Positions 5,677 to 54,583 of a stretch of 64,000 bases of DNA are shown here, one piece after another (positions within the stretch are counted from its first letter, which is position 1; every line of letters begins with the position of its first letter). Both the position numbers and the translations under genes were made by a program. The notes beneath the pieces are model-generated. The model was not told where the DNA came from. It saw nothing but the letters and a program-made list of their open reading frames with translations, and did no database searches. Source of the DNA: Chrysophaeum taylorii (Eukaryota; Sar; Pelagophyceae; Pelagomonadales; Pelagomonadaceae); contig JAQMWT010000114.1 in the NCBI GenBank assembly GCA_029834535.1, forward strand, positions 1 through 64,000, in the 5' to 3' direction.

Positions 5677-6038
5677 CCCTTACCCTGATCGCCGACTGCG
5701 GTTGCGATGGAGGACGGTGCCTCATGAATCCTGAGCCTTGCGAGGGCATCCGCCCTCCCGGCGTAGGTTGGCACCTATTCGCCTCCCGGGCGGGCCGGTT
5801 GGCAGCCGGAACGTTCGCAGTGGGACGGGGTATGGCCGGGGGGCGAAGACGGAAGGTTATCGACGAGTTGGTTGTCAGTCACATCGCGGTCTCCTCGTCG
5901 CATGGCGACAAGCTTGATGGTCACTCTCCGCCGACCGACCTTTCGGCGCTCCTCGTCTACAGGCCCGTGATTCCGGACTGGCACCTGTCGGTCCGGCCTG
6001 GCTCCCATGCTCGGGAGAGGTCTGAAGTTAGTTAGTTA
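5677..6038 (+). mobile_element. SINE-like element, copy 1 (full length)
   Basis: Starts CCCCTTACCCTGATCGCC and ends in a GTTA/TTAG repeat tail. It is flanked by a target duplication GTTGTAATAC (5667-5676 and 6039-6048). The uninterrupted host site can be read at 32454-32464 in another copia copy. Two further copies share the same 5' start (23116, 32504), which favours a true SINE over random LINE 3' ends. No clear tRNA-type A and B boxes were found, so the promoter origin is unknown. The open frames inside it are probably chance. Confidence 0.85.
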
Positions 6039-7066
6039 GTTGTAATACGAAAGGACACAGGTAATGTGATGGATTTAGGGAATAATCGTCCCATAATATT
6101 ATAGAGGAGCACAAAAGCTTTGAGTTCAATAGGGGATCTCATGCAAGCAAGTGGTTTTCTTGAATTAGTCAAGAATCCCAGACGAAAGTTAGAAATGCCC
6201 TCCATTTCATCTTGACTGGGATGTTCGACTGTTTTATTAGAGTGCAGACGAAGGAACAACATAGTTAAGGTTTCAAGCTCAGTCACAGTTAAGCGCACGG
6301 ATCCTGTACGACTGAAAATATTGTAGGTTTTAGGTGTGGACACAAATGGTATGTCAGGAAAGACCTGCGTCCAAGGTTCGTCGACTATTAACTTGCGACT
6401 GATGGAGTTAGCGTGGTCTGCAATATCCAGAAAGGAAGTGACTCGTTTATTAGGCCATGAAAGCAGATCAAGAGGGCCGGTGTTATATTTGCGTGCGACG
6501 AGGATCCATCTTTCTCTGGCTTGATAATCTCCACATAAATAGCATGGAAATCGGTCACATATGTCCACCGTATAGTGCATCGTTGAGAAGATGAGATTGG
6601 CAACTCGTATATGATCTTCGTATGATGCGGAGTGTGGTGGAGTCATTTCCATGAAGAGAACGAGCGGCTTTAAAAGCTCAAGTACACTTAGAGCACTTGG
6701 GAACAAAGAATCATCCATATCGCGCTCGAAGGTGGAAATGGATCTCCCATTGATTATGTTGCGATTTGTGCATGGTGATGTCAATTCCACTATGTCAGTG
6801 TAATATCGTGCACGTTCAACGTCCGATGCTCGATGGAGATATGTCAAAAACTTAGGTAAGGATGGGAAAACTTCGATGGAATTACCAAAACGTCTTCGTA
6901 GCATGTGCGTGATATTGTCGTCGCTCTCAACAAGAACTTTAACGTTGATGTTGATTTGCAAGTCATTAGAAGCGCAAGCCAAGAATGCAGGAGTGGACAT
7001 CCCAGAGCAAAGTAAAGTTACTGTAGGTATTCGTGGGCTAGGAGATGAAGTTACTGTATGGAGCAA
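6032..7066 (-). CDS. DNMT-like C5 cytosine methyltransferase domain of CopL L1
   Basis: A 344-residue open frame in a fossil copia element, between protease and integrase. Visible cytosine-5 methyltransferase landmarks are: an AdoMet-binding motif I-like segment (VTLLCSGMSTPAF, residues 17-29) followed by an acidic VESDD; a motif IV-like SPC (97-99) holding the candidate catalytic cysteine; a motif VI position reading MEMTPP (139-144) instead of the usual ENV; and a motif VIII-like YQARERWILV (181-190). The fold assignment is from these motifs only. Known C5-MTases methylate cytosine in DNA. Whether this one was active is unknown. The last few codons run into the SINE duplication. Confidence 0.75.
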   Translation of the reverse strand: MLHTVTSSPSPRIPTVTLLCSGMSTPAFLACASNDLQININVKVLVESDDNITHMLRRRFGNSIEVFPSLPKFLTYLHRASDVERARYYTDIVELTSPCTNRNIINGRSISTFERDMDDSLFPSALSVLELLKPLVLFMEMTPPHSASYEDHIRVANLIFSTMHYTVDICDRFPCYLCGDYQARERWILVARKYNTGPLDLLSWPNKRVTSFLDIADHANSISRKLIVDEPWTQVFPDIPFVSTPKTYNIFSRTGSVRLTVTELETLTMLFLRLHSNKTVEHPSQDEMEGISNFRLGFLTNSRKPLACMRSPIELKAFVLLYNIMGRLFPKSITLPVSFRITTN

Positions 7067-7084
7067 ACGTGTTGTAACCTTGCG

Positions 7085-9829
7085 TCATACAGGAGGTGGG
7101 AAATGCTTGCGTATGTAAGGCAGCTGCGAATGCATTGACTCCAGGATGGTTTTAAGCCATGGGACGTAAATTGCTCGTTCCATGAGGGTGGAATATAGTT
7201 TGAGCATTTCGCGTTGTTCATTAAAAGCACATAGTCTGAACTGTAGTGAGCGAAGTTCCATTTTACGCGCTTTTGCTTGTTGTAGCGAGTAAATTGGTAG
7301 AGTTGGCAACAGGTTACTGAGTCTAAACAAAGTAATCTTGACATTATCATCAATTTTACTCTGGATAGATGATTGTCCTTTAAATTCAACTCCATAAAGG
7401 TGTATACCAAGTTTATCTTCTCCCCATTGAGTCATACTGATGATGTGCAGATCGGGATCGTTATGGTCGTTTTGCTTGGGTAGGAAAAGCGCAACGTCTA
7501 GCTTTACATATCCCACATTTGGATGCTTTGGCAGAGCGGGAATGACGGTCCTTATAATCATAGCATGTGTGATTCTCTGCGTATCCGTAGCAGTCTGGAT
7601 AGCAGGTGATAAAGACTCGGGTAGCTTTACGATGTGGATAGGATCAGCATAACGTTTAAAGTTAATTACATGTTGAGAAGCACATGTGTCAGCATATCCT
7701 GGCGTAGTCATTAGCGGCAAATTGTACTCGTTGTACAGTTTAAGCATTGTTGCATAACAGGCATGTGTTGAGCTTTGACCAAACACGTACTGTGTCATGA
7801 AACTTTGCGTTTGTTCGGAAGGCACAACGACGAGTGTAAAACCAGTATTTAATTTTGGTAGCAACACAGGGGGATCTGTACCATCTTCATTATCTTCATT
7901 GGTAAAATTACTGGGGAGCTCAGAGTGCGAAGAAGTTTCCCGAGCTTGACGACGAACAATAGCATTCTGAGCTTTAGCATTTATGTGCTGCAATAGCGGC
8001 TGAGGGATGTTATCGATTTCATCATCTTTAATGGACAGGAAAGTGTGGAACATTTTCTCTGTATCAGCAGTCCCCCTCTGCTCCGCATCACTGGGGGACG
8101 CTTCAGGAGCAGATGTTTCAGTTTGATACTTTTCTTCTGAAACAAGAGATTCCTTATCGGCTTCCAAGAGGTTCGATATGGTATTGGACATAGTATCAAC
8201 TCGAGATAAGTAGAGATGAACCTGGGTGGCTTCATCAGGATCTAAGGACTGTGTCGAAGCTTGAGAAGCGGCTGTCCAGAGGGTACTCAATAAGCTTTTC
8301 ATTTCCCCCTGTACCATTTTAGAGTCGGTGGAAGGATTGGGATTCGCTTCCTGCAATTTACCAAACAGGTGGCGAAGACGATCAACTTGATAAGTAGCCC
8401 GGTCCATAAGAGACATATTAGAGCGTGCATTGCGGTTAGAGGAAGATGAGTAGACAGGACGATCGAAGCTGGTACCTTTGACGTTATAATTTGAGGGTGA
8501 ACGATAGTACGACGTGTCACGGGGTGAGATTGTCGATGCTTTATCTTTTGCATTACGAAGCTTACGAGCGTTGAAGCCAGACTGTCCAGCTACAGTGGCT
8601 AACAACGAGTAAGCGTTGTTTAGAGAGCCGTGGGATTGATGAATAGTATCCATCAATAATACCTTAGGTGGCTTGGTAGCGGTAGTACCAGGGATGTAAG
8701 GGATCCAAGAAGCGGGTTTATCCAAGCGTCGGTTAGAAGAAAACCTTGTCTCATTATATATCTTTAACAAGAATTCCAATAGTGGACGAACGTCGTTAGG
8801 ATCAACTAGCTTTAACAATTCGGGATCGTGACTCGAGTTGTTACTAGAGCGTGTCTCGTAGAGTTTACACCATTCCAATAACGATTGAGAATAGCGCCCG
8901 TGATCCGAGGGATTAGCATATAGACGGTAGATCTCCTCGTGAGCTTTAAGAGTGATTATGGAGTTATATTAAATATGATTGATGCTTCATCATTATTTAA
9001 TTGCTTTGCCTGAGATTGAAAGGCAAGGAGTTGTTCGACATATACATGGGCATACCAATTAACATTTATAGACATTCGATTAAACTGAGATTTAAGCTCA
9101 GTTACACCTGTACAAGACACTGTCTCATAGTAATGATAGGCCAAAAGCATTACAGCACGCAATTTATTGGGATGTGCAGTAATTGCACAAATTCTCTTTA
9201 GTTGAGGCCACATAGCGAGAGCGGGCTTTTCCTGGGACTCGAGGATAAAGAATGTGTACAAGAAACCAGCATAAGCTTCGCAGTGTTTGATCCAATCGGC
9301 ATTAGAGAGACCTGTAAAGGATATGTTAGTTAAAGATGAATCATACACAATTGATTTAGGAAATCGGGTACCTAATAAAGTGAGGACATGTTTAACATCC
9401 TCATTTAATTCAGGACGGACAAGGTTGTACGACTCTTGGTAGTAAAGTCGTTCAAGATTATTACGGGCATCAACTGTTAGTTGATAAGAAGAGTTGACGT
9501 GCCAAGTCTTTAAATGTTCGGGCAGGGCATCTTCATCAGGTAAGATTAAATCATTAATTTGTTCAGCTTTCCATTGAGCGAAGATGATATCAACTTCTTG
9601 TTCAAGAAGTTGATTATATTCCGGAGCATTCCGGGTGTAAGCTTCATATGAATCAAAGCAGAATAACGCGTCCACATATGGACTTGTCATATGCCTGCGA
9701 AGCGCTTCAATTTGCAAGCTCACCTTGGTTGAATTATCTTGGAAACGCAATCCTGCATTAATTTTATCAACGAGGATTTGTTCTTGTTTGTAGATATACG
9801 TGGTAGATATTGTTTTTTGTTTTGACGTG
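7085..9829 (-). pseudogene. gag and protease region of CopL L1 (fossil)
   Basis: The protein reads as copia gag from near 9829, continuing to a protease-like core (PGYADTCASQHV) near 7670. The fuller copy in L3 (43369-46101) shows the same order. The segment before protease has a Ser/Glu-rich, low-complexity stretch. A CCHC knuckle was not seen. Broken, with a few breaks. The DNMT frame follows directly. Confidence 0.75.
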
Positions 9830-10310: not shown

Positions 10311-11152
10311 TGGAGAGATTTGACACTCTCCGGGTACATGGTAGAGACTGCGTGCAGTCTTAGGCGTGTACAGACCATTCCGCTTGTCACATGCTACTAC
10401 ACAAGGTAGGGCTTTAAGTCCTAACTCCTTAAGGACATTAGGTCCCATAGAAGCGTTTACACTGACAACGAGGAACGAGGCCTCTATTAATTAAACAGAC
10501 AACCCCGTACCTGACGGTACGCACCTGGAGGCCTACTCCATGTTGGAAAAGAGCTTCAGACTGGGTTCTTCATAGTCATGAAAATAAAAGGGCGGAAGGG
10601 TAAGGAAAAAAAAGAAAGAGGGAAACAAGAGGTGAGGGTAGGAATGCCGGTCCTGGTTTGTGCGAGTGCCCGCGGCTATATATACCCCTGTGCTTCCCCA
10701 TCGTAGTGAAACGTGAACATCTGGGGCGAGTCAAGCATGTATGCGAGACGGTGGGGACCCAGCAGACGACGACGCCATCTGCTTAAGATGAACATCTGCG
10801 TCGGAGATGAACATCCGGTCCTGGCAAGCGAGAGCGCCCAGATGAGGGGGGTCTAGTGTGTGTGCTAGACGATGCGATGGGGCTCCACCAGTTGGCGGCG
10901 GCAACTGCTTCGTAGACACTCACACACTCCTTGCGGCGCAGCGGTGGAGCGGATTCGAACGCGCGAACCACCTCGTGCGCTTTAAGGGCCCATAACCAAA
11001 AGGTGAGGGTAGGAATGCCGGTCCTGGTGTGTGCGAGTGCCCGGGGCTATATATACCCCTGTGGGAAAGCCGTATTACGGAGAGAAAACCCTCGTGTAGA
11101 GATAGGTGTGAAAATGTTCCAGTGTCGCACACATAATAGTGTAGCTCTCTGG
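10311..11152 (-). repeat. 5' LTR of CopL L1, interrupted by a TRIM
   Basis: Matches the 398-399 base LTRs at 30445, 46586, 49333 and 61701 once the 438-base TRIM and one 5-base target copy are removed. The LTR begins CCAGAGAGC and ends CTCTCCA. It includes a short perfect hairpin (AGACTG-CACG-CAGTCT). Confidence 0.88.
10626..11063 (-). mobile_element. TRIM-like mini LTR element
   Basis: A 438-base insertion in the CopL LTR flanked by a GGAAA duplication (10621-10625, 11064-11068). It has 67-base direct terminal repeats (11063-10997 and 10692-10626), each with a TATATATA box near its start. GTTATGGGCCC, the half-tRNA-iMet primer complement, follows the first repeat directly at 10996-10986. 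It has no coding capacity. These are the hallmarks of a terminal-repeat retrotransposon in miniature. The repeats differ at few sites. It looks structurally whole and young relative to its host LTR. Confidence 0.82.
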
Positions 11153-11313
11153 ACCAGAGGCACAGTGATTTTTACTGATCTCTACACCCACCAACCGGCG
11201 CGCCTAGTCCGACAGCCTTATGAAGAAGACTCTCGAGCGACGCGGGGTTGCTGGCGTCATTGAACTCTCGTACAGTCGATCCTCGGCATCATCCGCAAAC
11301 ACAGCAGTCCCGA
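11153..11313. other. Junction segment with CopS leader-like fragment
   Basis: CACAGTGATTTTTAC at 11161-11175 matches the CopS leader at 16487-16500, suggesting a CopS remnant against the CopL LTR end. The remainder (to 11313) has no match in the left arm. It may hold the beginning of the MULE-like element that the left arm lost. Confidence 0.4.
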
Positions 11314-11584
11314 GATCCTCCAACATCTGGAACAAGTTCGCATACAAAGCTTCCGACCGACGCTCGACGCCTTTAATGGCTTCAACGTGAAAAAAAACAC
11401 CGACGTCATCGCCGCCTTTGAGAGAGGCGAGGTCGACGAGCACGTGCATGTCGACAGTCGACAAGGTTGCTGTCGGACTCGCGCGCGTCCCGGGCTTCAT
11501 CAAGAATTTCGAGCAGCGGCTCGCCAGTGCAGTGTGGCCCAAGGACGACGCCACCAAGGTACGTGAGGCGCAGCAAAACTTTTT
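11270..11584 (+). pseudogene. 5' coding remnant of the MULE-like element
   Basis: After a plausible splice acceptor (CTCTCGTACAG, ending near 11276), the frame reads SILGIIRKHSSPEILQHLEQ and on through DVIAAFERGEVDEH. It then continues, after a frame slip at a short GTCGAC duplication near 11450, as VPGFIKNFEQRLASAVWPKD. The product is helical and charged, and I do not recognise it. The left arm retains only the part from about 11314 on. It may be a transposase N-terminus or an unrelated captured exon. Confidence 0.35.
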
Positions 11585-11855
11585 AGGGTCGGATAAGAAA
11601 ACGAGACTAGCCCGCGCCGCAACGACGGGTCCTACAACGCGTGGGCTTTTTCCTTTTTTTGCGTGAGGGGACGAAAGGATGCCGACTTAAGGATGCCGAC
11701 TTCACTATGGGGACTAGTTCCATCGCGACGATCTCGCGGCGTGGCGGCACATACTGCTTGAGTACAAATGAACATAGTTCAGCGATCCGTTGAGTATGTC
11801 TTAGTACAAACTGAAACATAGTTAACGGCTCGTACGAACTTTCTTATCCGACCCT
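11585..11855 (+). mobile_element. MITE with AGGGTCGGATAAGAAA inverted ends, copy 2
   Basis: Same element as 4425-4691, with a small internal duplication of GGATGCCGACTT. Inverted ends AGGGTCGGATAAGAAA. No clear target duplication at this site. Confidence 0.75.
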
Positions 11856-12179
11856 GCCAGCGTCTCGCCGCGCAGAACGGCGCTTGCGGTATCCGCTCTC
11901 GCGCCGCCGACCTCAGCCTCGCTGCCCCCGCCGGTACGGAAGACCTCCCGGTGTGCCTCGTTGCGCCACACTGTTGCACCACACTGTTGTGGTGCCACAC
12001 ATCATCCGCCAAAATAAATCCCATTATCACCAGCCTTTGGTTGAAAAACTACCCCTCTAGAAGAGAAGGGTTTAATCATAGCTCTTCGGCTGATTTCTTG
12101 CGTTGGCGAAACCGTCGTCGCCAGCTCGGTCTGTCAGTACGTTCGACACTAAACGGATAACATAAACGGGAAGTTCAAT

Positions 12180-12824
12180 GTGCGTCTGTCACGTCTGGCT
12201 GGCGCATGGCTGGCGCTCGACGAAGATGGCGTAATCATTGCCGAGCGAGCTACCGACGGCGGAGCCCATCCCCACTTTGTCTCCGCAGCCGAGTGGCGTT
12301 CCTGCCGTCTGTCCAACCTCGCTCCTGAGCGTTCAACCAATCTCCAATCCAACTTAGGCGCCTCGAGGTCAGCGTCACCGGCTCCGAGCAGGCCGCGTTC
12401 CAGCAGTCGAGGGCGCGAGCCAACGATCTCGGCGCGTCCCTCATTCTATCCAACCTCCAGATTGGCGGGGTCCGCGCGGCGTTCGAGAAATACAACGCCG
12501 ACCCAGAGAGCCCCGATGCCGCGGTCCCAAAACACAGCTTTCCTGACCTCCTCGAAGCTAAAATGGAGGACGTCGGCGAAAGTCGCCGGTGAAGCGAGTT
12601 CAGCTTTCATCGCGGAGGCGGAATTAGAAAGTAGGCGTGTAATATCCTCGCGGTCCGGCTTCCTGCGACTGGAGTTAGGGGGAGTGTTTACGGACGACTC
12701 CACAGGAGCGAGAGAACGAGGAGGGTCGCGACGGGCAGGCGTGACTCTTATTGGGAGGCTTCGCTGTGGCTGGTACGGCATTGGCGACGTCCGAGCAATG
12801 GTAGTGGTAAAGAGGAAGGGCTAG
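12180..12824 (+). pseudogene. Uncharacterised coding remnant, right arm
   Basis: An open frame of 214 codons begins RLSRLAGAWLALDEDG. A second frame after TCCAACTTAG (12353, splice-acceptor-like) reads LEVSVTGSEQAAFQQS through SLILSNLQIGGVRAAFEKYN to a stop near 12588 and looks more protein-like. The gene may have been spliced. I recognise no family. It lies between the MITE and the G-tract array. Confidence 0.3.
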
Positions 12825-12937
12825 TTTAACGACATTGCGGTCACCAGGGTAAGCGACTAGTTTTCGTCGTAGGACCATGATCTTCTTAGGGTGATTTGGC
12901 TATTAGTGGGGCGACAACGCTGGATTCTATATGTGTT

Positions 12938-13150
12938 GGGGGGGGCGACCTTAAAAACATAGTGTTTTTTGGGGGGGCGACCTTATAAACATGTTGTTTT
13001 TTTGGGGGGGCGACCGTAGAAAAAGTGGTGATTTGGGGGGGGGCGACCTCAACAAAAAAGTGGTGATTTTGGGGCCGCCTTAAAAAAAGTGGACGTTTTG
13101 GGGGGGCGACCTTAAAACCATGCGTCGAATTTGGGGGGGCGACCTATAAA
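12938..13150 (+). repeat. G-tract tandem array, right arm
   Basis: About seven imperfect units built on G(4-9)CGACC plus an A/T-rich spacer. Most G runs are 7-9 long, against 5 in the left arm. The array could fold as G-quadruplex on this strand. It lies in the non-coding part of the MULE-like element. Confidence 0.82.
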
Positions 13151-13229
13151 AAGTGGCGGTTGATTAGTCGAAAAGTCCTTTAGGCCGTTTAGTTCGGCGA
13201 AGAGCCAACGGAAACTTCTTCGTCAGCCG

Positions 13230-13571
13230 ATGGCGTCTACGCCGTCGCGGGCGAGGACGCAGACCCTACAGGAGTCACCTATTCCACCATCGCCGTCGTC
13301 GCCGCCATTGTCGCGGTCGCGGCCGCAAACGTTTGAGGAATCACCGATTCCACCATCGCCACCACCACAGGCCCAAACCGATTCAGGAGCGGCTGCGCTG
13401 CAACCGCTGCCATGGGAGTCGGGAGTCCCATGGGAGTCGGGAGTCGGAGGAGTCAGTCGGCGAGGCGAAGGAGCGCGTCATAGCGCGTATACTGAAAGCT
13501 TCCGACGCCGTGACGGTCTTAGGCGCGAGAAAATGTGTCTTAAAAAGATGCGTCCCGTCGCAGTAACATGA
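13230..13571 (+). CDS. Pro/Ser-rich hypothetical ORF of the MULE-like element
   Basis: 113 codons starting MASTPSRARTQTLQES with a repeated ESPIPPSP motif and tandem PWESGV units. Low complexity and no domain recognised. It may be a short exon or a chance frame. The left arm carries a similar open start (3086 downward). It lies just downstream of the G-tract array. Confidence 0.25.
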   Translation: MASTPSRARTQTLQESPIPPSPSSPPLSRSRPQTFEESPIPPSPPPQAQTDSGAAALQPLPWESGVPWESGVGGVSRRGEGARHSAYTESFRRRDGLRREKMCLKKMRPVAVT

Positions 13572-13616
13572 CTTCGAAAAGTTTCGACGTCTCCGCCCCG
13601 CGCGCAGGCGCAAGCA

Positions 13617-14236
13617 TTGTCCCGCGACCTCGCGCGGCAGTTCCACGGGGACAAATGGCGAGACCAGCGGGCGCATGACGTGATGCAGCGGCTGAACAAA
13701 GCGTTACGAACGCTTCGCAACTACTTCGGAGCGACGCCGCCTCCTCCTGTCGGCTCGTCGTGCGAGGCTCGCTCAGTGCCTATGTCCACGGTCGAGGCTG
13801 AGTCGGATATCGATGATTCTGATGGTGCATGGGAAGCGGAATGGGACGCGACTTTTAGCAACCACGACGCTGACGAATACTGCGAGAAGAAGCGCCACTT
13901 TTAAAAAAAGAGGAAGAAGAATGCGGCGGAAATTAATCGGGCTCGAAACGCGTCGAAGGCGGCGTACCAACGGCGTGTAGAGGAGCAACGCCGGTACCTC
14001 TTCGCGAAAGACGCGGCGTTATCTGGGAGCCTCTGCGCATTTACGACCCGCTCCTCGCGTGCGAGCTGGTTGTGGGTAGTGAGACCGGGAGCGACGGGGC
14101 AGCGTCGTTCGAGTTTCAGTGGCAGGCCGAACAATTCGCGCGCGGTCGATCGGCTAAATTTGGCACCGTGCTCGAAGCTCGCGAATGCAAGCACGACGTC
14201 CTCTGTTTGGTTTGCGGTGCGGCAGAGACGGCATGA
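13617..14236 (+). pseudogene. MULE-like transposase N-terminal region
   Basis: Reads MSRDLARQFHGDKWRDQRAH..., then an acidic stretch (ESDIDDSDGAWEAEWD), then a basic segment (NAAEINRARNASKAAYQRR), then VIWEPLRIYDPLLACELVVG, and ends with ECKHDVLCLVCGAAETA. The CLVC pair, followed downstream by GRFVLRNHTEHSRSC near 14330-14390, could be a Cys/His finger of the kind found at MULE N-termini. One in-frame stop and one frame slip are visible. The left arm keeps the frame where this arm slips. Confidence 0.45.
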
Positions 14237-14304
14237 GCTCGCGCCAGCAAGAATGCCCGGCGTGGTGTTAGGGCGGCGACGCCAGGCGTGGAGGCCCAAG
14301 ACGA

Positions 14305-15506
14305 GTGTCCTTTCGTCGAGATATACCGGCGTTCCCCGACAACCGGCCGCTTCGTCTTGCGAAACCACACGGAGCACTCGCGAAGCTGTGCTGCACGTTC
14401 ACAGCCCATAAGAAGGAATGCAACGAAACGAACGCCATGCTCGACCCGAAGCACTTGGCGCCGAAATTACAACAAATGGCCAGGTCGAATTCCTTGGACG
14501 TGGCCCGATTCTGGCTGTGTGTCCGTGCGCCCTCGAAGAGGAAAGTCGACAATATCTGGGAACGCATGTCCGATCCCGCGAAAGAATACCCTCTCGGAAA
14601 TGATCGCAAGAAAGAGAACATCATTCCCACCTACGCTGGGATCAAGGACACGGAAAAGGTCACAAGCCAGGCCGTCGAGTCATCGAACAACGCTGACGAT
14701 AAACATAATGTAAGTCGCGTCGCATTCCATCTGTCAAATCGCGAGCGTGCAGTCATCTGATCTGACATTCCCGTCAGGTTCGATCGGCGTGCCCCTCGGT
14801 GATCCTCATGACAGAACTTTTTGCGCAGCGCCAGAAATTCCTCCATGACAAAGCAGCGGCGGATAGTTGTGTCCGGGCGCTTCCGCCGCGCGTTGAGGAG
14901 CGCCTCGCCAGGATCATCACAGAAGCCATGCGAATATACCCCGGCGTCTCGTGGATTGACGCCGAGACTAAGGTAGAGGCCCGCGTCCGGAGCAAGGTGG
15001 ATCAATCGAAAGTCCACAAGATAATTTTCAGTGCGAATGCGACGGGGCCGCCGGAGTGTGACTGCTGTTACCATCGATCCGGCCTCCCCTGCTATCACGG
15101 GGCTCGAGCTATCGTGGACAAGTGCGGCCAGCACGAAATTTGGCGATTTGTTTCGAAAAAACTCACAACCCAGCACTGGCGGGAGCTCTTTCAGGACGTC
15201 GACTTCCACCTTCCGTCGTCCGCTGAGATCTCCGAGCTTCCCCGGGTCCTCTCGATCCTCTTCCCGGTTGCTATACGCCCACCAAAGGGACGCCCCTCCA
15301 AGAACCCCGGCGCCCGGATCCACTCCGCTCGTGAGGATGGCCGGCAGAAGCGCACTAGGGTGCGTTATTGCCGTCTCTGTAAAGACCAGGGCCACGCAAC
15401 AGCGGAGTGCCCTTTCCAGCAATTTGCTGGTACCCTCAACGACGACAGCAGCGACGACGACCGCGGCGACAACGACGCCGAGGGCAACCATGGTGCCTAC
15501 GTTTAG
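14305..15506 (+). CDS. MULE-like transposase C-terminal part with SWIM finger
   Basis: Two exons, 14305-14709 and 14778-15506, joined in phase 0 across a 68-base intron (GTAAGT donor, CTGATCTGAC branch-like site, CCCGTCAG acceptor). The second exon has a SWIM zinc finger, CDCCYHRSGLPCYH (C-x-C-x8-C-x-H), then a zinc knuckle, CRLCKDQGHATAEC (C-x2-C-x4-H-x4-C), and an acidic Asp-rich C-terminus. SWIM followed by a zinc knuckle is the usual C-terminal layout of Mutator-like transposases and binds DNA or protein. The DDE core is not present, so this cannot be a catalytic transposase. The true start is uncertain, because coding signal continues upstream. Confidence 0.65.
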
Positions 15507-16323
15507 CACGCCCGCGCTTGCGCCTTTCATTCTCAGCTCCGTTGTGTGGCTCGTGCTCTCGGTGCAAAGGCCCGATAGCCTGCCTGGTGCTGCGTTCCAC
15601 TTTCCAAGGAAGTGCGCATGCTCAACACCCAAGTATTTAAACGTCGCCAAGACTCCTCGCAACGCCCCGTCTCTCTCTATCACGCCCCTCACTTCTGAAG
15701 TGCTTCCCCCCATAACATCTCCGGGCTATCGCAAGCTTTCTTCGCCGCCAGCAAAACGCCAAAATCCACGACTCCTAGCACCTCGGTACCCTGGGACGTT
15801 GCTAACCGTTTGACCGCGGCAGACTCTGATTTCCGTCACTAGATTTACTGAGACGGGGTCGCTTACAGCCAAAAAGTACCGCCCGCCCATTCTCGAAAGC
15901 ACCACCCGCACCCAACTTTTTAGTGCCCCTTCGGTGGTTTCGTTGCCCCCCCGCCGCACAAATAGGCTTTCGTTGGCGCCGCCGCCGCCAGCCCGACCCC
16001 ACAAGGTCCAAGGGCCGAGTTTGCGAGTATCAATTTGACCTGCGCCTAGGACGGACCTGGCTTCGGGGAACGGTCAACTTTGCTTTCGCTACCTCCGCGT
16101 CGCCCTGGCGTCAGGTCCATCCGGGTTCTCCAAAGCAAAATACTTTCAATGGACAGGCACGAGGTCCTGGCGCTCGAGCTGGAGATGCATCGGCGAGGAG
16201 GCCGGCACAAAGCTAGACCAAGAGTGGGGCGACGTACCCGGTGCCTTGGACATCAATGACATCATCGAGCATACATCACTCCTCGCCCCTCGGGGTCGCT
16301 GGCTAGCCCACGAAGACGGATAC
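15507..16323 (+). other. 3' region of MULE-like element, no clear gene
   Basis: About 800 bases after the transposase stop. A frame ending at 16325 reads MDRHEVLALELEMHRRGG and continues through DINDIIEHT. It is present in both arms but short and unrecognised. No terminal inverted repeat matching the 5' end of the element was found by eye. Confidence 0.3.
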
Positions 16324-16481
16324 TAGAGATAGAAAATTTGATATAGGGTCCGTACCCCCCCTCCTCTCGTCTCTCTCACACCCAATCACCAATAAAATCG
16401 CAGTGTCGAACACCGTGCTGCTCTTTGTGTCGTTAGGGACAGGCGTCAGGGCAGCGCTACCACTGCCATCATTCTCTACCA
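16324..16481 (+). repeat. CopS LTR, 158 bp (element S1)
   Basis: Begins TAGAGATAGAAAAT and ends ATTCTCTACCA. An isolated copy of exactly the same length lies at 49734-49891 on the other strand, which fixes both ends. The terminal TAGAG/CTCTA are inverted. It abuts the MULE-like element directly. Confidence 0.75.
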
Positions 16482-17985: not shown

Positions 17986-20244
17986 ATGCCAGCCAATCAA
18001 GAACTCCAAAAGGAGATAAAAGAACAAGAAGCTCGTTTCAAAAGAGACATGCAACAACAAGCTCAAGCATACGAAGCTCGGCATCGCCAAGAGATTCAAG
18101 ACCTTCGCGATATGCTGTCGCAACTGCAAGCTACACAAGGGACACCACCACCAGCCGTCGCTGCTGCGGCTCCGCCTCCCACTCCGGCTCAACACGATCC
18201 CAAGACTAAAGTTAACACCGTTAGTGACCCACCTAGCGCCGTCCTCAAGTCAATGGACTCGGCTCAAGTCACACCCCAAATGCTTTCGTTTCGCGTCATG
18301 CAGTTGTTCGTCGAACATCTGATGCCTGAAACAGGCATAACACAATACTTTTTGCAGGGCTTCTACACGTGGGAATCCGTCTTGCGTGGATCTAACGATC
18401 TCGCTGACGCTCTCCTAGGCCACTGTATCGGCGAATACGACAAGGACCCCGACCACCACTCTACCGCCGGGAACACGCAAGATTTTCAAGGCCGTTACGT
18501 CTACCACAAGGGTGTCTACCGCAAGTTCGGCAAACATTTCCTGGATAACGTCTACGAGCCAAAGCTCCAAGAACTTAAAGATAAAGACAAGGACCCGACC
18601 GACGAAAGGCACGTTGTATCCGATCGCTCAACCTCACCTCCAAGGAAAAGAAGCCGGCTTCATCGTGTACCTCCGCGAGACCGTCCACCCCCCTTTTCGC
18701 CGTTTCCTGCACGCTGGTAGCGACACCGTCGAGCACCCAGCATACGACAAATCGATGCACTCGGATCTTCCCATCCGATCGGACTCGAATTTGTGCTCCA
18801 AGTTCGCCTCGCACTTGATATGGCGGTATAAAAGTGTGTATGGGCGGCTTCTCCGGATTAGCCTATTTGGACCATACACTTCTCGCTACATAAAGCTGTA
18901 GTAACCGCCACACTTGACAAGCACACGGGCCAGAGCCACGTGTACCATGCGCATTATGTCGATAATGCCTTCCTGGACACGCCGTTCAACCCGGAGATCC
19001 ACGAGCCTGCGCATTATATCGACTATATGCGCCATGTTCAGCAGCAACTGCGCCAGCTAACAACCGACGCTTCTCTCCAACTTCCCGACGACAAGATCCT
19101 CGAAGAAATCCACCAAATTCTCCGCTGCAAGTACCCCCCAAGCTTGCTTGACTCCCGCGCCCCAACACACATCAAGGGCTTCGCACGTCTTGCTAACTGT
19201 CTGCGCACTCCCAACGACTCGCTGTTACTCGACGAAGACAAGGAAGCCACCCACCACCTTCCTAAGCTCATCGCTCGCATCACCGTCATTTCGACGTTTG
19301 AGCGCAACTTTTGGGCTCACATCGAGACTCACCCAACTCTCAACTTCAAGCCCTTGCGCTTCGTCACTGACTTTGGTCGTCTACCAACAAAGGACAAAGA
19401 CAACCCCCGTTTTCGCTCCCGCCGTCATGGTCCCCACCTCACCGAAGACGATGATGACACCTCTCCCTCTGAAGACGACACCCCACCGGACCCCGATGAA
19501 GACACCGACCCCGTCGCTGTTTTTCTCACGGAGGCCAACATTGACCACGACGAAGACAATGACCTCATTCACCAACGCCACGCCTACCGCAAAAAGCAAA
19601 TTTCGCGGCACCCCAAGAAGCCCCCAGCCAACAAAAAGCCTCAAAATCCTCGCTCCCCGTCTTACTACGACATCAATGACAGTCCTAAGCCCAAGGCCAC
19701 CCCTGTCACCCCAACGAAGAACAAGCAACGTCCCCGTGCTACTCCGGTCACCCCTGACAAACGCGAGCACCCGCATCTTCGCAAGGTCACCTTTCCCACA
19801 CAACCTCATCCACCCGAACCATCTACTCCTGACCAGCGCTTCAAGGTCCCCCTTCGTGAAGTCCGTCGCAAGCTCCAAACCATGCGGAATCTTAGTCAAG
19901 CCGGTCGCCAACATACGTCCAGCTCCGAGCGCATGAACAAGCTAATCAACCTCATCACCACCATCTCCGACGAGATACTTCTCTCCGAAGCCGAAAACGA
20001 TGCCGCAGAATTTCTCCAGATGATGACGTCCGATCCCCAGGACAATCCACCTGATGAGGGCGAAGCCGAAACCGATGAAAAATATGAAAAAGGACACCTC
20101 GGTTTCTGTGACGACAACGGTCAGCTAGACCTCTACGACGACACCATTCCCGAAATCAATGATGAAGATGACTCCGCCGAAGACTACGCACAACGTCACA
20201 GTGACTATATGCGTGCTCTCCACCAGAGTCGGCTTTTTCGCTGA
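17986..20244 (+). pseudogene. gag of S2 (fossil)
   Basis: Starts MPANQELQKEIKEQEARF, a coiled-coil-like N-terminus, then a Pro/Ala linker. The capsid-like region (MLSFRVMQLFVEHLMPETGI, YFLQGFYTWESVLRGSNDLA) is conserved with S4 and S5. The C-terminal third is acidic and Lys/Pro-rich. No CCHC knuckle was seen. Interrupted by the MITE at 18819-18910. Broken, about two breaks. At the 3' end a T-rich run precedes the change to the pol frame, as in S4. Confidence 0.75.
18819..18910 (+). mobile_element. 92-bp mini-MITE
   Basis: Insertion into S2 gag flanked by a 7-base duplication CACTTGA (18812-18818, 18911-18917). Ends are TATGGCGGT and ACCGCCACA, i.e. T(A/G)TGGCGGT inverted termini. The ACTTTTATACC/CCATACAC inner parts are also partly complementary. 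S5 lacks it at the same site (57220), giving the empty allele. Non-coding. Confidence 0.8.
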
Positions 20245-20898
20245 AGGTTGCCGACGACGCCTGTGCCGCCAACCACATCTTTCTCAAGCAGGCACCAAGC
20301 CTCACGTTGACGAATTTCCCGACATCATCGACCATCTCACCCAGAGTCGCCGATTTTCTTTGAGCAACTTACACTCGAGGAAAGACCTCAAAGAAGACTA
20401 ACTCGCTGCACGGATGCAATGGACCCGGCACTGAAACTTCATTGATTGACGGTGGCACATCTCTTTGCTTTACGCGCACAATAGACCACTTTGTTTCTGA
20501 GTCCATACGCAAGATACCCGAACACACCATTCATATGGGACGAGGCACCCTTACCAGCCACTTCATCGGTGTTAAACCGTTGTATTTGCAGGCTGCAGGT
20601 CTCTCTTCCAAGGATACAAAAGACTCAACCGGTTGCGCTTTATATCTCGTATTTATGGTCGTCCCGAAATTCAGGAAAGGTCTCCAAGTTATCGCAACAT
20701 CTCAGCTCAAAGCTCTGCATGTCCAAGCCTCCGATCCGCCACGGCCCCACGAGCCATATCTGTACGAGCTTGTGAAGTCCTCTACCTTCGATCCGCACGA
20801 TTATAAGACTCTTATAGGAAAATCCGCCGTCGTACTCGCCACTCGCAAACATAACGGCCTGTTGTCCCTGCCGTCCCATCCAAGCACCATTCACAACT
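20245..20898 (+). pseudogene. Aspartic protease region of S2 (fossil)
   Basis: Reads VADDACAANH near 20250 and then SLIDGGTSLCFTRT near 20440, where D-G-G-T-S stands for the retroviral D-T/S-G-A/S active site. S4 has D-G-G-A-S at the same place, so D-G-G is a family trait. Downstream PLYLQAAGLSSKDTKD and ATSQLKALHVQASDPP are conserved with the fragment at 24786. Broken. Confidence 0.6.
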
Positions 20899-32270: not shown

Positions 32271-32503
32271 ATCGTGTGTTAAAAAAAAAAGGAGTAGGTT
32301 TCGCCAAAAGCATTTATGTGTGTTTGGTATTTAGAAGAGGAGTTAGAAACTGTTATGTCTCCGCCTGTATGTCTTCCACCAGTGATGTAAATGATAGATG
32401 AAGTAGAGGATTTATTTAGGAATAACCTGTGAGATGGTTGGTTAGATTCGATAGTTGTAATACGAAAGGGCACAGGTAATGTGATGGATTTAGGGAATAA
32501 TCG

Positions 32504-32867: not shown

Positions 32868-32878
32868 GGGAATAATCG

Positions 32879-37018: not shown

Positions 37019-37083
37019 GTTCTCTGGGATCCAGGAGAGCGCCTGGTGCTTGTCGATGATCGCTTGTTCAGCGGTTCGAGACT

Positions 37084-37605
37084 TCAGCGCTTCTTGCGTC
37101 TGTGGGGCTTGCAGTCACTGCTTGATTGATGATGTTCGAAGTGCTTGACCGTCTGTTTCTCCGGGGTCTGGAGTTGGGTAGCTGGTGATCGAGACCGTAA
37201 AGGAGGCCGTGCCCTCGTGCTCGCTTCTGTGCGGGTTTCCGAGGTCGGCGCTTGGCAATGGGGCTGCCACCCGATCTTCTCTTGGCAGTTGACGACTTCT
37301 CCCCGTGCAAGCTCTTGACCTGGGAGGATCGATATCGGCGTGTCGTCAATCGACGATATGGCCACCGCGGCCGCAGTTGGGTCGGAGCGGTCATGTGTCG
37401 AGCAGGTTCCGGCGACGACGCCGATGTGCTCTAGGCTCGGCGCAACGGCGACGAAGGCTTCTCCGGGCTTCAGCGCTTGGCTCAGCTTGACCGGGATGTT
37501 GTGGGTTCGACCGGGGTCGATGCGCTGGGAGCCGGTCGCGAACGCTCGGATCTCGGGCGCGGACGTTTTCGGGTCGTTGCTCGGCATAGACGGGTCCTCG
37601 GCCAA
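37084..37605 (-). pseudogene. Protease-DNMT linker of T1 (fossil)
   Basis: Reads IPVKLSQALKPGEAFVAV, HIGVVAG and SSIDDTPISILPGQELA. This is the beta-rich segment commonly found after protease in gypsy pol (substrate-like I.N....I.L..G..L). No catalytic role. Ends just before the DNMT frame. Confidence 0.45.
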
Positions 37606-37639: not shown

Positions 37640-40600
37640 TCAGCGATCCTCTTCAGCGAGCAGTGGTGGCAGAGCTCTCTTGCGACTTTGACTCCGACTC
37701 TGCGCCAGCGCTTGCCCCCGGAAACCGTAAATTGGCGCTACGACGGGGTGTGTTTCGTAGGCTGCCCGATAGAGAATGGCGGGTGACCGAACGATCTCCC
37801 CCGCGTACGGGAGCTCCTTCATCTGGAAGACTGTTTGGGTTCGCGAGAAGGAAATTCGGTCTGGGGGGTAATCCACGATAGCGCCCAAGGCTCGAATGTC
37901 GCGGGCTCCCAGCAGAAACTGTTTATTGGTGTCTGCCACGATTGCGACTACCGGCACGGCCATTTCGTCCGAGACGGATATTCGCAGGGCGATCCACTCT
38001 GAAATCGAGGTCGTGTTCTTTCCCGATCCGAAGAGCGTGCGCTCGAAAGGCAGCTTGCCGCTGTCCAGTAACATGCCTCGCTTCCTCATCAGGCGCGCGA
38101 GGTCGCGACAGATGTAGGTGACGTCGGCCATTCCGTCCACACCGATCACTGTGGCATACGATGAGTCGCCTGGCTTATTGAACACGTGGATGGGCATGAA
38201 CGTCACGCTACCGGCTTCCCAGCAATTAAGGACGCGCAGGTCTCTGCCGATCGTTTCGGTGTCGATGGGGGCGAAAGAGGAGTGCATGCGCATGGCTTCG
38301 TCCTCCGTCCCTGCCATCGGCATCGATACGTGCGCGCGTCCCGCGAAGAATCGGTGGGCTATCGACCACCGGCTCTGTCGGCTCGCTCGCGGATCGGCGG
38401 GTAGCTCTTGGATTCTCCGCTGTAACCGACGGCCTCTTTCTTCGCGCTCTCGGACCGGAAGGTCGGGAAATCTTCGTTCCTCGTCTTTCCGAGGCTCCTT
38501 TCGTTCTTCGGGTGGCTCGGGCTCCTTATCGATTGCCTTCTCTTCGTTTTGAAGAGGGGGGACTCTGCCACCGTCTGGGGTCTTATTTCGGTTTCGTGCC
38601 GGGGGGTCGGTTCGCTCGGGACTCTTCTTGTTCCAGAGCCGCTTGACTCTCGTCCCCCTCCTCGACCCTCGGCGCGGAGGTCTTAATCTGGCGCTTCTTA
38701 TCCGCGTGCGGGACGCTTTCGATCCGTGAACTTCCTCGAGGCTTCTCTCTTCCCGAGCTTCGCGCGGGGGTCCCCTGTCGGTTTCGGCTGTTTGTTCCGA
38801 TCCTTTGCGCGGGGTTCCCTTGTCGGTTTCGGCTGTTTGTTCCGATCCTTCCGGTTCCGGCGTCTTCGGTTCCTGGGCGGGTTCCTCGACTGGTGGCGAC
38901 TCGCTGTTTCCGCTGCCGATATCGCGGCCGGGTCCGCGGCGGGTACCCCCTTGGGGAGAGTGCGGCGTCGCCCTCGACGTTGAATCGGGGTTGATATCGT
39001 TCTCGGGCGTGCTGCCGTCGTCGTCATGGTCGTTTCTGTCGGACGCGTCGCCGTCCGCATCCGTCGGGTTTTGTCGGTGCGGGTCCGCGAATGCTTGGAG
39101 AAGGGCATCTGTTATTGCTGTGGCGGTTGCGGGTCTGCGCGGATGACTGAATAGGGCAGGGAACAATTCTCCGGGTTGACTTTCCCGTTCGTCCGAACTG
39201 CCGACGTCCGAATCGGTGTCATCGTCGATGAGGGCGGTGAGTTCCTCATTGACGGCGGCGTGTTGATTTGCCTCCGGTGATCCCGTTCGGTTAGCGTCGG
39301 TGTCGGAGTCGTCGTCGCTGTCGGACACGTTCTCGACGAGGTCGGAGACGTCCGTGTCCGACTCGTGCGGGACGTGCGTGGTGGCGGCGCTGATTCGACT
39401 GGCAACATCCTCTGGGGCGTGCGAACTCGAAGTTTCGGAAGTGTCGCTGGCGACCGAGGATGTTGCGTCCGACTCGTACCGTCTCCGCTCGAGGTCGGCG
39501 GCGTTTCGGAGGTTCGACTCAACTAAAAGCGATAGCGCGTTCTCCCCGGGATCTGGCCGATCGGCATCGGGCACCTGGGAGGTTAGCGACTGCGGGTTGA
39601 CCGTTCGCTCCGAATCGACGTCCGCTTCGGGTGGTCCGGCATTTTCCTCGTGCACGAGCGGAGCTCCTAGCGAGGTGAGCTTGGCCTGTGCGATTGCGAT
39701 CTCTGCTTGCATTTTGTCGAGCTCATCCTCTGGGACCACGTCGAGAGCAGTTGGAGAGGCGAACGTCGAGTCGGCCGGGGCGGTCATCACGCTCGGCTTC
39801 GGCGGTGGCTCGCTCGGTGGTGTCACTGGGGGCACGAAAACCGGCTGCGGTGCTTCAAAAAACTCTCCGTCGGTGCAGCTGGCCGACCCGAGGGACGTGG
39901 CGTCGGTGAAGGAGCATCCGGCGGTTCCGTCCCTAGATTGAGGCCCAAAGAAAGACCCCGCGTAGTCCATCGAAGATTTTGTGCTCGAACTCGAGGAGTT
40001 TCGCGCTGCGAACATGCGCTCGACGATCGCTTCGACCTGGTTGACCTGCACCACGCCAGCGTCCGGCGAGGAGGTGGCGTTCGCATTCGCGGGCGGTCGT
40101 CTGTCGCCGTAGGGTCGTGCTGCTCTCTGCTCTCTCTTCCAGGCTCCGTAAGGGATGGGTTCTTGTCCCTGCCGTCGCCGCGCTTTCATCGCTTGCTTGT
40201 ACGCGTTCGGGCGCGGGCATCGGAGGGAACCATCCGCGTTTCGCGTATGGTCGATCTTGTAGTTTCCGCAGTCGCACATCTTCCGCATCCATGCGTCCTT
40301 GTTTCGCATACTGGGCCTCGGATCATCGTCTACCTCTGGCTCTTCCTGTTGCGTCGCGTATGCGCCGGGTTTCTTGCGGTCGTGCGGGTTGCGTGGCGGC
40401 GGGTCGGTGGTTTTACCGGGGTGCGCCTTCTGCCACGCGTTGAACTGGATCTCGTGCCGGAGGATTAGACTTTGTACATCGGAGAAGGTGTTGTACTGAC
40501 TAGGTTGGTCGCACCGCGCCATATGAATCTTTTGTTGCAGCTTTGTCGATGCCAAACCGGCGATCATTTGGTGAATCATCTCGATGCTATCCATCGACGT

Positions 40601-42476: not shown

Positions 42477-42952
42477 TGCGGCAGGAAAGGTTTATGCGCG
42501 CCGACTTCTTACCCTGCTTCGACGGTGCCCTCGACGTCTCGAGGGTGCCGAGCGGGTTGAGGAGCGCTTCCTTCCTGTCGATCAACCTTCAAACTGTCCA
42601 CGAGCTTCAATCCGAAGACTCGTGAAATGATTTATGGCTGAGACTAGTCGATTTGAAGAAGGGGAACGCCTGGTGGCGTTGTAATACGTGCGTTAGGGGT
42701 TGAATTAGGGTGCGAGGATGGATGACGTCATTCACAGTATGCCCTAACACTCCCCCCAAACCTCCGCCTAAATCTAACAATATATGCCGCGTTTGGCTAA
42801 ATTGACGTTCAGCCTACAATGCTGTAAAATCCCAAATGTAGGTTTCTCGGACAATTATTAGAGTCCAGTAAAAAGTCCAGTAGACGGGAAATGGGGTAGA
42901 GAACTCGATAGAACTAAGGGGTAAGGATGGCGGTGTGAGGGCTACCGCCACA
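42477..42952 (-). repeat. 5' LTR of Ty3 element T1
   Basis: 476 bases, TGCGGCAGG...CCGCCACA. It contains a TATATGCCG and CCCTAACACTCCCCCC segment not present in the other LTR. Confidence 0.85.
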
Positions 42953-43350
42953 AGCTGCTTTAGAAGCTCAAGTACACTTAGAGCACTTGGGAACAAAGAA
43001 TCATCGCGCTCGAAGGTGGAGATGGCTCTCCTATTGATTATGTTGCGATTTGTGCATGGTGATGTCAATTCCACTATGTCAGTGTAATATCGTGCACGTT
43101 CAGCGTCCGATGCTCGATGGAGATATGTCAAAAACTTAGGTAAGGATGGGGAAACTTCGATGGAATTACCAAAACGTCTTCGTAGCATGTGCGTGATATT
43201 GTCGTCGCTCTCAACAAGAACTTTAACGTTGATGTTGATTTGCAAGTCATTAGAAGCGCAAGCCAGGAATGCAGGAGTGGACATCCCAGAACAAAGTAAA
43301 GTTACTGTAGGTATTCGTGGGCTAGGAGATGAAGTTACTGTGTGGAGCAA
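42953..43350 (-). pseudogene. DNMT N-terminal part of L3 (fossil)
   Basis: Motif I-like VTLLCSGMSTPAF and motif IV-like ELTSPCTNRNIIN, the same as L1 residues 1-130. The rest of the domain is at 32879-33722, beyond the Ty3 insertion. Confidence 0.8.
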
Positions 43351-50039: not shown

Positions 50040-50113
<74 letters not shown>

Positions 50114-50150: not shown

Positions 50151-50153
50151 AGG

Positions 50154-50843: not shown

Positions 50844-50879
50844 CAAGGATTTCCAGACACCAATTCTGACGTTCCACCC

Positions 50880-52838: not shown

Positions 52839-53628
52839 TGGTTGCCGACGACGCCTGTGCCGCCAACCAGAACCTGATCAATCAGGCAACAAGATTACAA
52901 GACTTCCCGACAACTTCGACACTCTCTCCAAATGTCGCAAGCTACATCAACACCATCTTTTCTCCAGATAAACCTCACACAAAGACTCACTCCCTCCATG
53001 GTAGCAATGGTCCCGGTGTCCAATTTTCATTGCTTGATGGAGGTGCTTCCTTCTGCTTCACTCGCACAGTCAACGGATCTATTCCCGAAACTTTGCGAAG
53101 AATTCCAGAACACAAAATACGAATGGGTCGTGCACCTTAATCGGCAATTTCATCGGCGTAGAGCCGTTGTACTTGCAACCCGCCACCCAACAAAACAACA
53201 ACCCCACCGACTCTACTGGATACGCGCTCTATCTGATATTGCTGGTTGTCCCCGATTTCCGACCAGGATTACAGGTTTTAGCAACATCTCAACTCGAGGC
53301 GCTGAACGTCCAAACCACTGATCCACCGCTGCGTCACGTTCCATATATTTGTGAACTTATGGATCACTCAACAGCAGACCCCCACGACTACAAATCTCTC
53401 TTGGGAACCACCACGGTAGTCATCGCGAATGGACAATCAAATGGTTTACTGTCGTTACCATCTCATCCAAAGACAGCCTTTGATCGTGTGGTCAGCTTCC
53501 ACACTAAACAAGACACACCCCTGAAGGATGAAACCCATCATATTATTTCAAAGATCGCACAAGCGAGATCCAAAAACACCTCTTTGGACTTCATTAAATT
53601 GCAAAACCACTATGTTTTCTTAACATAA
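52839..53628 (+). pseudogene. Protease region of S4 (fossil)
   Basis: VADDACAANQNLINQATRLQ, then QFSLLDGGASFCFTRTVNG, with D-G-G-A-S as the probable active site. Then VLATSQLEALNVQTTDPP, aligned with S2. Broken. Confidence 0.6.
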
Positions 53629-54583
53629 ACTTATCGGCTGCCTCGTCCTTACTGTGAATATGCCTTCGCGGGCAACACGGATATCAGTATCTCCACTCAG
53701 CCGCCCCCGCTGCACGTGGTCATATCGCTGGTGGTCTACACAAACAAGGATTCGACTATTTCCGCAAACGGTTCTCAGACCTCATCAAAGTCGTTGCCAC
53801 TAGTGAGATCAATCCTATTCTTCGTGCTCGTGCACAGCGCCTCTTTCCGGGCGCACTGCACTTCAGCGACCTTCGGAAACTGAATGCAGCCCTCCCACTA
53901 TGATCTGTACGACTACCCAAGTTTGATGCAGCTGTCTTCGCCTTGCCCTGCCAACATCTCAGTGTCATGATGGGCTATGATGGCTATTCCACTCCAGTCA
54001 CTGATGATCTCTTTGTGCAATAGCAGACGCGCTTCGCTCGCTACACGCTCCCGACCTATTGTATAGTCGAGAACGTCCCTCCGAACTCGAGAACTCACCA
54101 TGAATACGATCAACTCGCAAAACGCTATCAAAGTCTCGGCTACTTTCGCCGCTCCGGCGTCTATAACGCATCAGCCTTCGGCGACGCCATTAGCAAGCAC
54201 CGCTATCTTGCAGTCTTTGTTTGGCATCCGTTACGCGACTACAATCTCGAAGGAACCGCCGACCCATGGCTCAAGTCGCCCCCGAGCATGATCCCTTTCT
54301 TAGAGCCTGACAGCGCCATCCCAAAAGACCTATGGGTCAATGCCCCTGCTCTACGTGGCACCGTCGCTTCTTCCACTCTGGAGTTCTACGGCCACAAGGC
54401 ACAACACCCATACAAACCTTCATCAGCCGCGCAGCTTTCGATTTCTGACAATGCCCAACTCTGTCGAATGCTTTCATGTCGGAGGACTCCCTTCTTGGAC
54501 CTTGGACTGGACACCGCCGGCATCCCCCTCGCCTCCATGGATTCCACCCCAAACCTTATCATCCTTTCGATTATTCATAACTA
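53629..54583 (+). pseudogene. DNMT-like domain of S4 (fossil)
   Basis: Readable motifs: ALPCQHLSVMMGYDGYSTP (motif IV PCQ) near 53945, IVENVPP (motif VI) near 54065, and SAFGDAISKHRYLAVF (motif VIII) near 54175-54215. The motif I region is decayed. This is the third DNMT copy of the CopS type, conserved at motifs despite large DNA divergence. Broken, several breaks. Confidence 0.72.

Follow-up and report, generated by a model that had tools for sequence, protein, structure and literature searches.

Cytosine methylation is usually aimed at retrotransposons; in the genome studied here, two superfamilies of long terminal repeat (LTR) retrotransposons keep an enzyme of the kind that writes it, in hundreds of places, which raises the question of what such an enzyme does for an element. 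The stretch analysed is a 64-kb window on contig C114 of the Chrysophaeum taylorii assembly (70.8 Mb, 697 contigs), crowded with nested LTR retrotransposons, among them two copia families, CopS and CopL, and a Ty3 element. The original prediction placed a DNMT-like cytosine-C5 methyltransferase (C5-MTase) in all three. We examined every coordinate of that prediction together with intact relatives from the same assembly (L001–L020), because most copies in the window are broken. The reading we favour, with a probability of roughly 0.55, is that these are LTR elements with a C5-MTase in Gag-Pol, captured once in copia and once in Ty3, which likely methylate their own complementary DNA (cDNA).

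By sequence, the domains of all three families belong to the C5-MTase fold family, as predicted: CopS by Pfam, Ty3 and CopS by profile comparison, and CopL by its motifs and a downstream block carrying motifs IX and X. Motif positions in the window come from pattern searches, with patterns derived from the element sequences themselves, and motifs are numbered I–X according to what we take to be the usual scheme. CopS copy 1 (predicted at 20899; plus strand) contains motifs I–VIII and the start of the VIII–IX stretch at 21013–22272, with motif I at 21127, IV at 21349, VI at 21478, and VIII at 21604. Its open reading frame (ORF; 20818–22488) matched PF00145 (E = 4.3e-7, 30.1 bits) above the cut-off of 22 bits. 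Alignment by hhalign of the CopS family profile (positions 43–225) with a reference profile of 87 prokaryotic and phage C5-MTases (positions 30–201) covered motifs I–VIII with a probability of 96.1% and a score of 70.0, the best of 15 column shuffles being 22.7, and a profile search of the PDB returned weak HhaI-type matches. Motif X (ALANAVP; 22638–22658) was located by pattern search and is supported by its collinearity with CopL, and the CopS IX–X block alone had no significant match to the C5-MTase profile. The intact relative L018 encodes a single ORF of 1952 residues with PF00145 at 349–475, the integrase core rve at 1016–1110 (weak, E = 0.006), and the reverse transcriptase (RT) domain RVT_2 at 1686–1933 (E = 1.6e-38).

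The Ty3 copy in the window (Ty3A; minus strand) carries motifs I–X at 35975–37054, as delimited by phmmer to intact copies. One in-frame stop at 36356–36358 interrupts it; motifs I, IV, VI, and VIII lie in the ORF at 36356–37114, and motifs IX and X in the neighbouring ORF at 35699–36355. PF00145 did not match this copy. Among three ORFs scanned from the sister subfamily Ty3B, PF00145 scored 25.3, 20.9, and 18.4 bits, one of the three exceeding the cut-off. The joint Ty3 profile (15–288) aligned with the C5-MTase reference (22–328) over motifs I–X with a probability of 97.6% and a score of 89.4, compared with 19.6 for the best of 15 column shuffles.

CopL copy 1 (6050–7054; minus strand) comprises motifs I–VIII and part of the insert, ending at about 6041 at an inserted repeat; motifs I, IV, VI, and VIII of its ORF (6032–7084) lie at 7001, 6770, 6656, and 6494, and its ratio of nonsynonymous to synonymous substitution rates (dN/dS) against other copies was 0.04–0.11. 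PF00145 matched neither the CopL ORFs of the window nor those of the relatives L003 and L004, and a PDB profile search with CopL gave no match. Motifs I–VIII are visible by eye and in register when aligned. Approximately 300 residues past motif VIII, a block containing HYSTRELARA and IANAIPAGT aligned with motifs IX–X of the reference (residues 493–586 on 240–340, 76%; 89.5% and a score of 46.0 for the excised block). The corresponding sequence in the window, consisting of the insert end and motifs IX (31884) and X (31791) of copy 3, occupies 31458–32303 on the minus strand (phmmer to residues 404–676 of the CopL ORF; 76–89% against the C5-MTase profile), beyond the stretch originally named. 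In a control scan of 49 pieces from six element ORFs, the top eight pieces all overlapped MTase halves (scores of 31 to 66), and the best non-MTase piece scored 19.1. On the strength of the IX–X block and this control, CopL was assigned a C5-MTase with a long VIII–IX stretch; motifs I–VIII were where the prediction had them, but the domain extends further than described. An earlier boundary ending the CopL MTase at residue 335 was rejected when the IX–X block was found downstream.

The prediction was to be abandoned if two or more of the domains lacked a significant hidden Markov model match. With PF00145, CopS passed among the window ORFs and Ty3 and CopL had no significant match, leaving two domains unmatched by plain Pfam, whereas profile comparison recovered both Ty3 and CopS at the probabilities given above.

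Copy number was high for all three families. The genome contains at least 116 CopL places, at least 92 CopS match rows, and at least 150 Ty3 places; of the last, 24 share at least 79% identity and 126, at 46–49%, constitute Ty3B, and about 129 of the 150 are stop-free. An intron-blind genome scan with PF00145, in which 123 of 474 candidates were scored, found at least 57 places: two host genes, 36 CopS or CopS-like places, and 19 outside the CopS list according to comparison by eye.

The position of the MTase within pol was as predicted. In CopS and CopL, the order is a protease-like motif, MTase, integrase, and RVT_2 reverse transcriptase, the protease being recognised by eye and rve weakly by Pfam; in the CopL relative L003, rve begins at 778 (weak, E = 0.011) and RVT_2 at 1419 (weak, cut by the ORF end). 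In Ty3, the MTase lies between a protease-like motif and RT, followed by RNase H and integrase, as seen in the full-length Ty3B relative L012, whose single ORF of 3057 residues contains PF00145 at 1443, RVT_1 at 1997, RNase H at 2231–2368, H2C2 at 2552, and rve at 2628. The motifs that we take, by eye, to be protease-like are ADTCASQHV in CopL copy 1 (7667–7693; minus strand) and LLDSGKL in Ty3A (38051–38071; minus strand). With its coding sequence lying in pol after the protease-like motif and ahead of integrase or RT, the MTase would be translated and packaged along with RT.

The sequences of these domains appear to have been conserved as working proteins over long periods. The motif order I-IV-VI-VIII-IX-X was seen in alignments, and in the sets of 8, 6, and 6 rows aligned for the three families the catalytic Pro-Cys pair in motif IV and the motif VI Glu were invariant. 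The element MTase domains are maintained by purifying selection: dN/dS was 0.041–0.094 among diverged CopL copies, 0.066–0.074 between L014 and other Ty3B copies, and 0.107–0.238 among diverged CopS pairs, reaching 0.48 in close pairs. By part, the CopL pair L003–L004 gave 0.037 and 0.053 for the MTase halves, 0.081 for the insert, 0.030 for integrase, and 0.139 and 0.437 for linkers; Ty3B gave 0.059 and 0.065 for the MTase halves, 0.137 for the protease region, 0.102 for the linker, and 0.265 for the gag region.

Constraint was also found in a Ty3 derivative lacking RT. The window Ty3 copy and the loci L009 and L011 share a deletion of the RT end, RNase H, and the integrase core; its junction in the window lies at 35206–35217 (minus strand; tblastn gap from 2046 to 2713 of the Ty3B ORF), and the surrounding sequence is identical at the three loci save for one mismatch in the 121 bases shown. 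An integrase C-terminal region remains at 34453–35619 (minus strand; PF22938, 3e-4, and PF24626, 6e-4, both under the cut-off). The Ty3A relative L010 retains the full undeleted stretch as far as its locus extends. Between L009 and L011, the single RT-less pair compared, in which the integrase end is not comparable, the MTase showed 32 nonsynonymous and 44 synonymous codon changes, and the N-terminal, protease, and linker parts 168 and 80 (Fisher p = 8e-5; p = 0.024 against protease and linker alone). This suggests that the MTase of RT-less Ty3A is still under constraint.

How many times the enzyme was acquired was addressed by comparing the three families. Phmmer found no similarity among their MTases, and pairwise shuffle tests gave z between −1.0 and 1.4 for Ty3B against either copia family. 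CopL and CopS, by comparison, were alike in the C part (z = 6.2 with 0 of 300 shuffles as good for L003; z = 3.6 with 1 of 300 for L005), and less so in the N part (z = 2.3; 8 of 300) and the middle (z = 2.5; 7 of 300). BLASTP aligned the CopL MTase end and integrase with CopS as a single stretch (21.9% identity, E = 2.3e-17), and the two families share a collinear order and a similarly long VIII–IX stretch. In a clean profile comparison of the two, only integrase was significant (96.3%, E = 1.9e-9) and the MTase halves were not (scores of 15.7 and 17.4), so that the case for kinship between the CopS and CopL MTases comes from the pairwise shuffles, the collinear order, and the tree. An apparent CopL–CopS profile match (E = 3e-296) was set aside, as the CopS profile had been contaminated with CopL rows.

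Phylogenetic trees recovered each family as one clade and joined CopS with CopL at 85/95, with a long-branch warning, and at 90/94. The three MTases do not nest as one shallow clade, in line with the original prediction, since their stem branches measure 2–4.6 changes per column. The host DNMT2 and DNMT5 genes, in trees that held no DNMT1 or DNMT3 reference, formed long branches and joined no element clade. The approximately unbiased (AU) test did not reject a single origin for all element MTases (p-AU = 0.512 and 0.312), and these data do not establish the proposed three or more acquisitions. Three independent captures would agree with the absence of sequence similarity between the Ty3 MTase and either copia MTase, with the long stem of each family's clade, and with the MTase halves of CopL and CopS failing to reach significance in the clean profile comparison; given the collinearity of CopS and CopL through MTase and integrase, their shuffle scores, and their clustering in both trees, we regard that history as unlikely. 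A single old capture within copia most likely underlies the MTases of both CopS and CopL. Our reading is thus one capture in copia and one in Ty3, and a single deeper origin remains compatible with these data. The copia capture would predate the split of CopS and CopL and is marked by the stretch of about 250–300 residues between VIII and IX; the Ty3 capture would have been a separate one, of a compact MTase.

Relatives of the enzymes were sought outside this genome. The three MTase regions were compared with 5.8 billion proteins by a search that requires exact shared 5-residue words and similar length; of the 2104, 4857, and 1935 candidates, none reached E = 0.001, and three viral-contig scans found no relative. 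A tblastn search with the Ty3B domain gave no phage match and eight plasmid records with E values no higher than 1; the two strongest (0.01 and 0.02) are annotated as DNA cytosine methyltransferase, and the next three listed have no annotation beneath the match.

Within the genome, the scan identified two host genes. A DNMT2-like gene (G000:C634:8824-9801) matched PDB 1g55 (E = 3.9e-39), and a gene combining PF00145 with SNF2 (DNMT5-like; G000:C621 from 16467) matched 7r76 (E = 1.3e-272), a chain named Rad8 in what we take to be the Cryptococcus DNMT5 structure; both are apparently intronless over the stretch read. Further host DNMTs may exist, because of the limits of the scan given above.

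From these sequences we infer catalysis by the element MTases, their substrate, the timing of their action, and its benefit as follows. The enzyme would methylate the cDNA of its own element in the virus-like particle, before or at integration. A new copy would then reach the nucleus already marked like resident DNA, and a host maintenance enzyme of the DNMT5 type could preserve the mark. Conserved MTases in two unrelated kinds of element suggest that the placing of methyl marks contributes to the way these elements spread. Because DNMT2-like and DNMT5-like genes were the only host enzymes seen within the scope of the scan, the elements might even supply most of the de novo cytosine methylation here, propagated by the DNMT5-like enzyme; an MTase kept by an RT-less Ty3 derivative would agree with an enzyme serving the whole family, or the host, beyond its own copy. 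We consider this extension quite unlikely.

Several observations weigh against self-methylation by active enzymes, the first group of which concerns the enzymes themselves. The Asn of motif VI is replaced by Gln in Ty3 and by Met in CopL, and CopS keeps one of the two Arg residues of motif VIII. CopL motifs I–VIII alone scored weakly against the C5-MTase profile (28.2, equalled by 1 of 200 shuffles; with Ty3 and CopS added to the reference the score was 29.8, equalled by none of 200). The confidence of AlphaFold models was too low for use (predicted local distance difference test, pLDDT, of 39.7 for Ty3 and 33.4 for CopL I–VIII). In the CopS pair L018–L017, the MTase (0.117 and 0.136) evolves at a dN/dS like that of neighbouring parts (0.125 and 0.153), so that this pair offers no contrast, and in the Ty3A pair L009–L010 the integrase end (0.128) is under tighter constraint than the MTase (0.236). 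If the MTase were degenerate and retained in Pol for structural reasons, or to bind nucleic acid or S-adenosylmethionine, this would account for motifs that depart from the canonical ENV and RxR and for a CopL N half barely detectable by profile. Such a domain would hardly keep Pro-Cys and Glu invariant in the aligned rows, nor would a CopL MTase with a dN/dS equal to that of integrase be expected of it, and we regard a non-catalytic role as very unlikely.

The second group concerns the DNA. The observed/expected ratio of CpG was 0.88–0.96 in CopL, 0.98–1.08 in CopS, 1.20–1.37 in Ty3, and 1.40 and 1.50 in the host DNMT genes; CopL and CopS thus fall below the host genes, which have higher GC content. 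The elements are not CpG-depleted, and a strong mutational mark of self-methylation at CG is therefore absent. C-to-T differences at CG were about 1.2–4 fold over those in other contexts in CopS and CopL (for CopL, one pair with 7 of 87 sites); in Ty3A and Ty3B, transitions at CG were not in excess and those at CT were higher. This pattern speaks against heavy inherited self-methylation at CG, for Ty3 at any rate; alternatively, it points to a different sequence context.

The missing CpG mark would also be expected if the substrate were RNA, with 5-methylcytosine placed on element RNA or primer tRNA to aid packaging or reverse transcription, as by DNMT2-type enzymes. Among host enzymes, Ty3B was indeed closest to the DNMT2-like one (z = 6.0, 0 of 300 shuffles; Ty3A, z = 3.6, 1 of 300), and the best PDB profile matches of Ty3, both weak, were the DNMT2 chains 9hgm and 1g55 (E = 0.044 and 0.049). 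This similarity lies mainly in the region of motif I (residues 15–73), however, the full Ty3 profile fits DNA methyltransferases at the 97.6% noted above, and the tree does not group Ty3 with DNMT2. RNA methylation therefore seems to us improbable.

The presence of a DNMT5-like host gene lends itself to another explanation, in which the MTase, as an anti-silencing factor or decoy, methylates host DNA, upsets the methylome of the host, or weakens DNMT5 by occupying hemimethylated DNA; hundreds of element copies could work in trans to this end. An invariant motif IV Cys and motif VI Glu would be needless for a pure decoy, and a benefit in trans would extend to elements lacking an MTase. We consider this explanation doubtful and retain methylation of the element's own cDNA as the preferred reading.

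Retrotransposons bearing DNMTs have been described before. LINE (long interspersed nuclear element), DIRS, and Gypsy carriers are reported in PMC5890265, which also shows that DNMTs from such elements are able to methylate CG sites de novo in yeast; in that 2018 study, cDNA methylation ahead of or during integration, with host upkeep of the mark, was already proposed for DIRS. The Gypsy carrier of charophytes invoked in the original prediction is found there: KnitGypsy-Dnmt3 of Klebsormidium nitens resembles the Ty3 element described here in its superfamily, in a C5-MTase within Pol, in purifying selection, and in intronless copies (PMC5890265). Its MTase groups with Dnmt3 and its repeats are DIRS-like, whereas the Ty3 MTase here, placed in a tree without a DNMT3 reference, weakly matches DNMT2 and bacterial enzymes in sequence, and here an RT-less derivative occurs at three or more loci. 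The further mention of C5-MTases in copia elements of dinoflagellates was not confirmed, since the same text gives LINE and DIRS carriers in Symbiodinium (SymbioLINE-Dnmt and SymbioDIRS-Dnmt3) and Copia without DNMT (PMC5890265). Those elements resemble the present ones in having hundreds of DNMTs in several distinct families (Ka/Ks <0.2 in Symbiodinium) but differ in kind, the carriers here being LTR copia and Ty3. Carriage by copia has been mentioned in print, since a 2025 paper writes of "LTR Copia and DIRS" with DNMT3, citing the earlier study (PMC12344493). Two other systems are more distant: DIRS elements with adenine methyltransferases, also borne by retrotransposons, whose Dam-like enzyme is structurally unrelated according to the same paper (PMC5890265), and transposons with ParB and N4C/N6A methyltransferases in brown, green, and red algae, likewise algal mobile elements but DNA transposons with another class of methyltransferase (PMC12477816). 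In the open-access literature searched, where one work turned up that deals specifically with retrotransposon DNMTs (PMC5890265), there was no description of a copia MTase whose VIII–IX stretch is long, of an MTase carrier devoid of RT, or of a genome combining copia and Ty3 carriers; the long-insert copia MTase and the RT-less carrier look new.

The remaining copies in the window are fragments. CopS copy 2 (predicted at 24786) retains a truncated MTase with motifs I and IV only at 25371–25641 (plus strand; pattern search and repeat comparison), and near 25641 it runs straight into CopL-type pol sequence, indicating a recombinant or a nested insertion. CopS copy 3 (predicted at 53629) has a broken MTase with motifs VI and VIII at 54024–54584 (plus strand; PF00145 E = 0.016, 15.1 bits, under the cut-off) and motif X at 55227–55247 (plus strand; pattern search); in the genome scan, 53763–54209 scored 34.9 bits with PF00145, reading through two stops. 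In CopS copy 4 (56167–61849), gag and pol parts remain, and nothing corresponds to 19381–22239, the segment with the protease-like region and the N half of the MTase. Pattern search located motifs IX and X only at 57984–58105 (plus strand), and the copy continues on the same strand with a copia integrase core at 58396–59352 (PF00665 E = 0.023, under the cut-off; E = 0.006 in the intact ORF of L018) and a copia reverse transcriptase in two ORFs at 60707–61846 (PF07727, 1.2e-16 and 2.9e-20). Within the insert of the L018 ORF, a piece of the VIII–IX stretch (profile 322–358) recurs downstream in four CopS copies as an internal repeat. For CopL, pattern searches located a truncated MTase with motifs I and IV only in copy 2 (predicted at 42953; 42832–43338, minus strand), and MTase fragments with motif VIII (33285) in the broken copy 3 (predicted at 32879; 32864–33431, minus strand).

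Two repeats accompany these elements. A 5.1-kb stretch occurs twice in opposite orientation with 96% identity (5–5124 and 11123–16356), flanking CopL copy 1, and six of its ORFs had no Pfam match at E = 0.01. A repeat of about 190–366 bp, 96–99% identical, lies within CopL and CopS copies (5677–6041, 23116–23481, 32504–32866, 59718–59905, and 56160–56372) and is possibly a solo LTR or a small non-autonomous element.

Standard Pfam scans miss MTases with a long VIII–IX stretch, and MTase carriage by LTR elements may therefore be under-counted elsewhere. Why a parasite would methylate DNA becomes testable here in one organism, with natural controls in the form of intact elements, carriers that lack RT, and copies in which the N half of the MTase is missing. 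If it is true that elements supply de novo methylation to a host with a DNMT5-type enzyme, this would bear on the persistence of methylation in lineages where no de novo enzyme is obvious.

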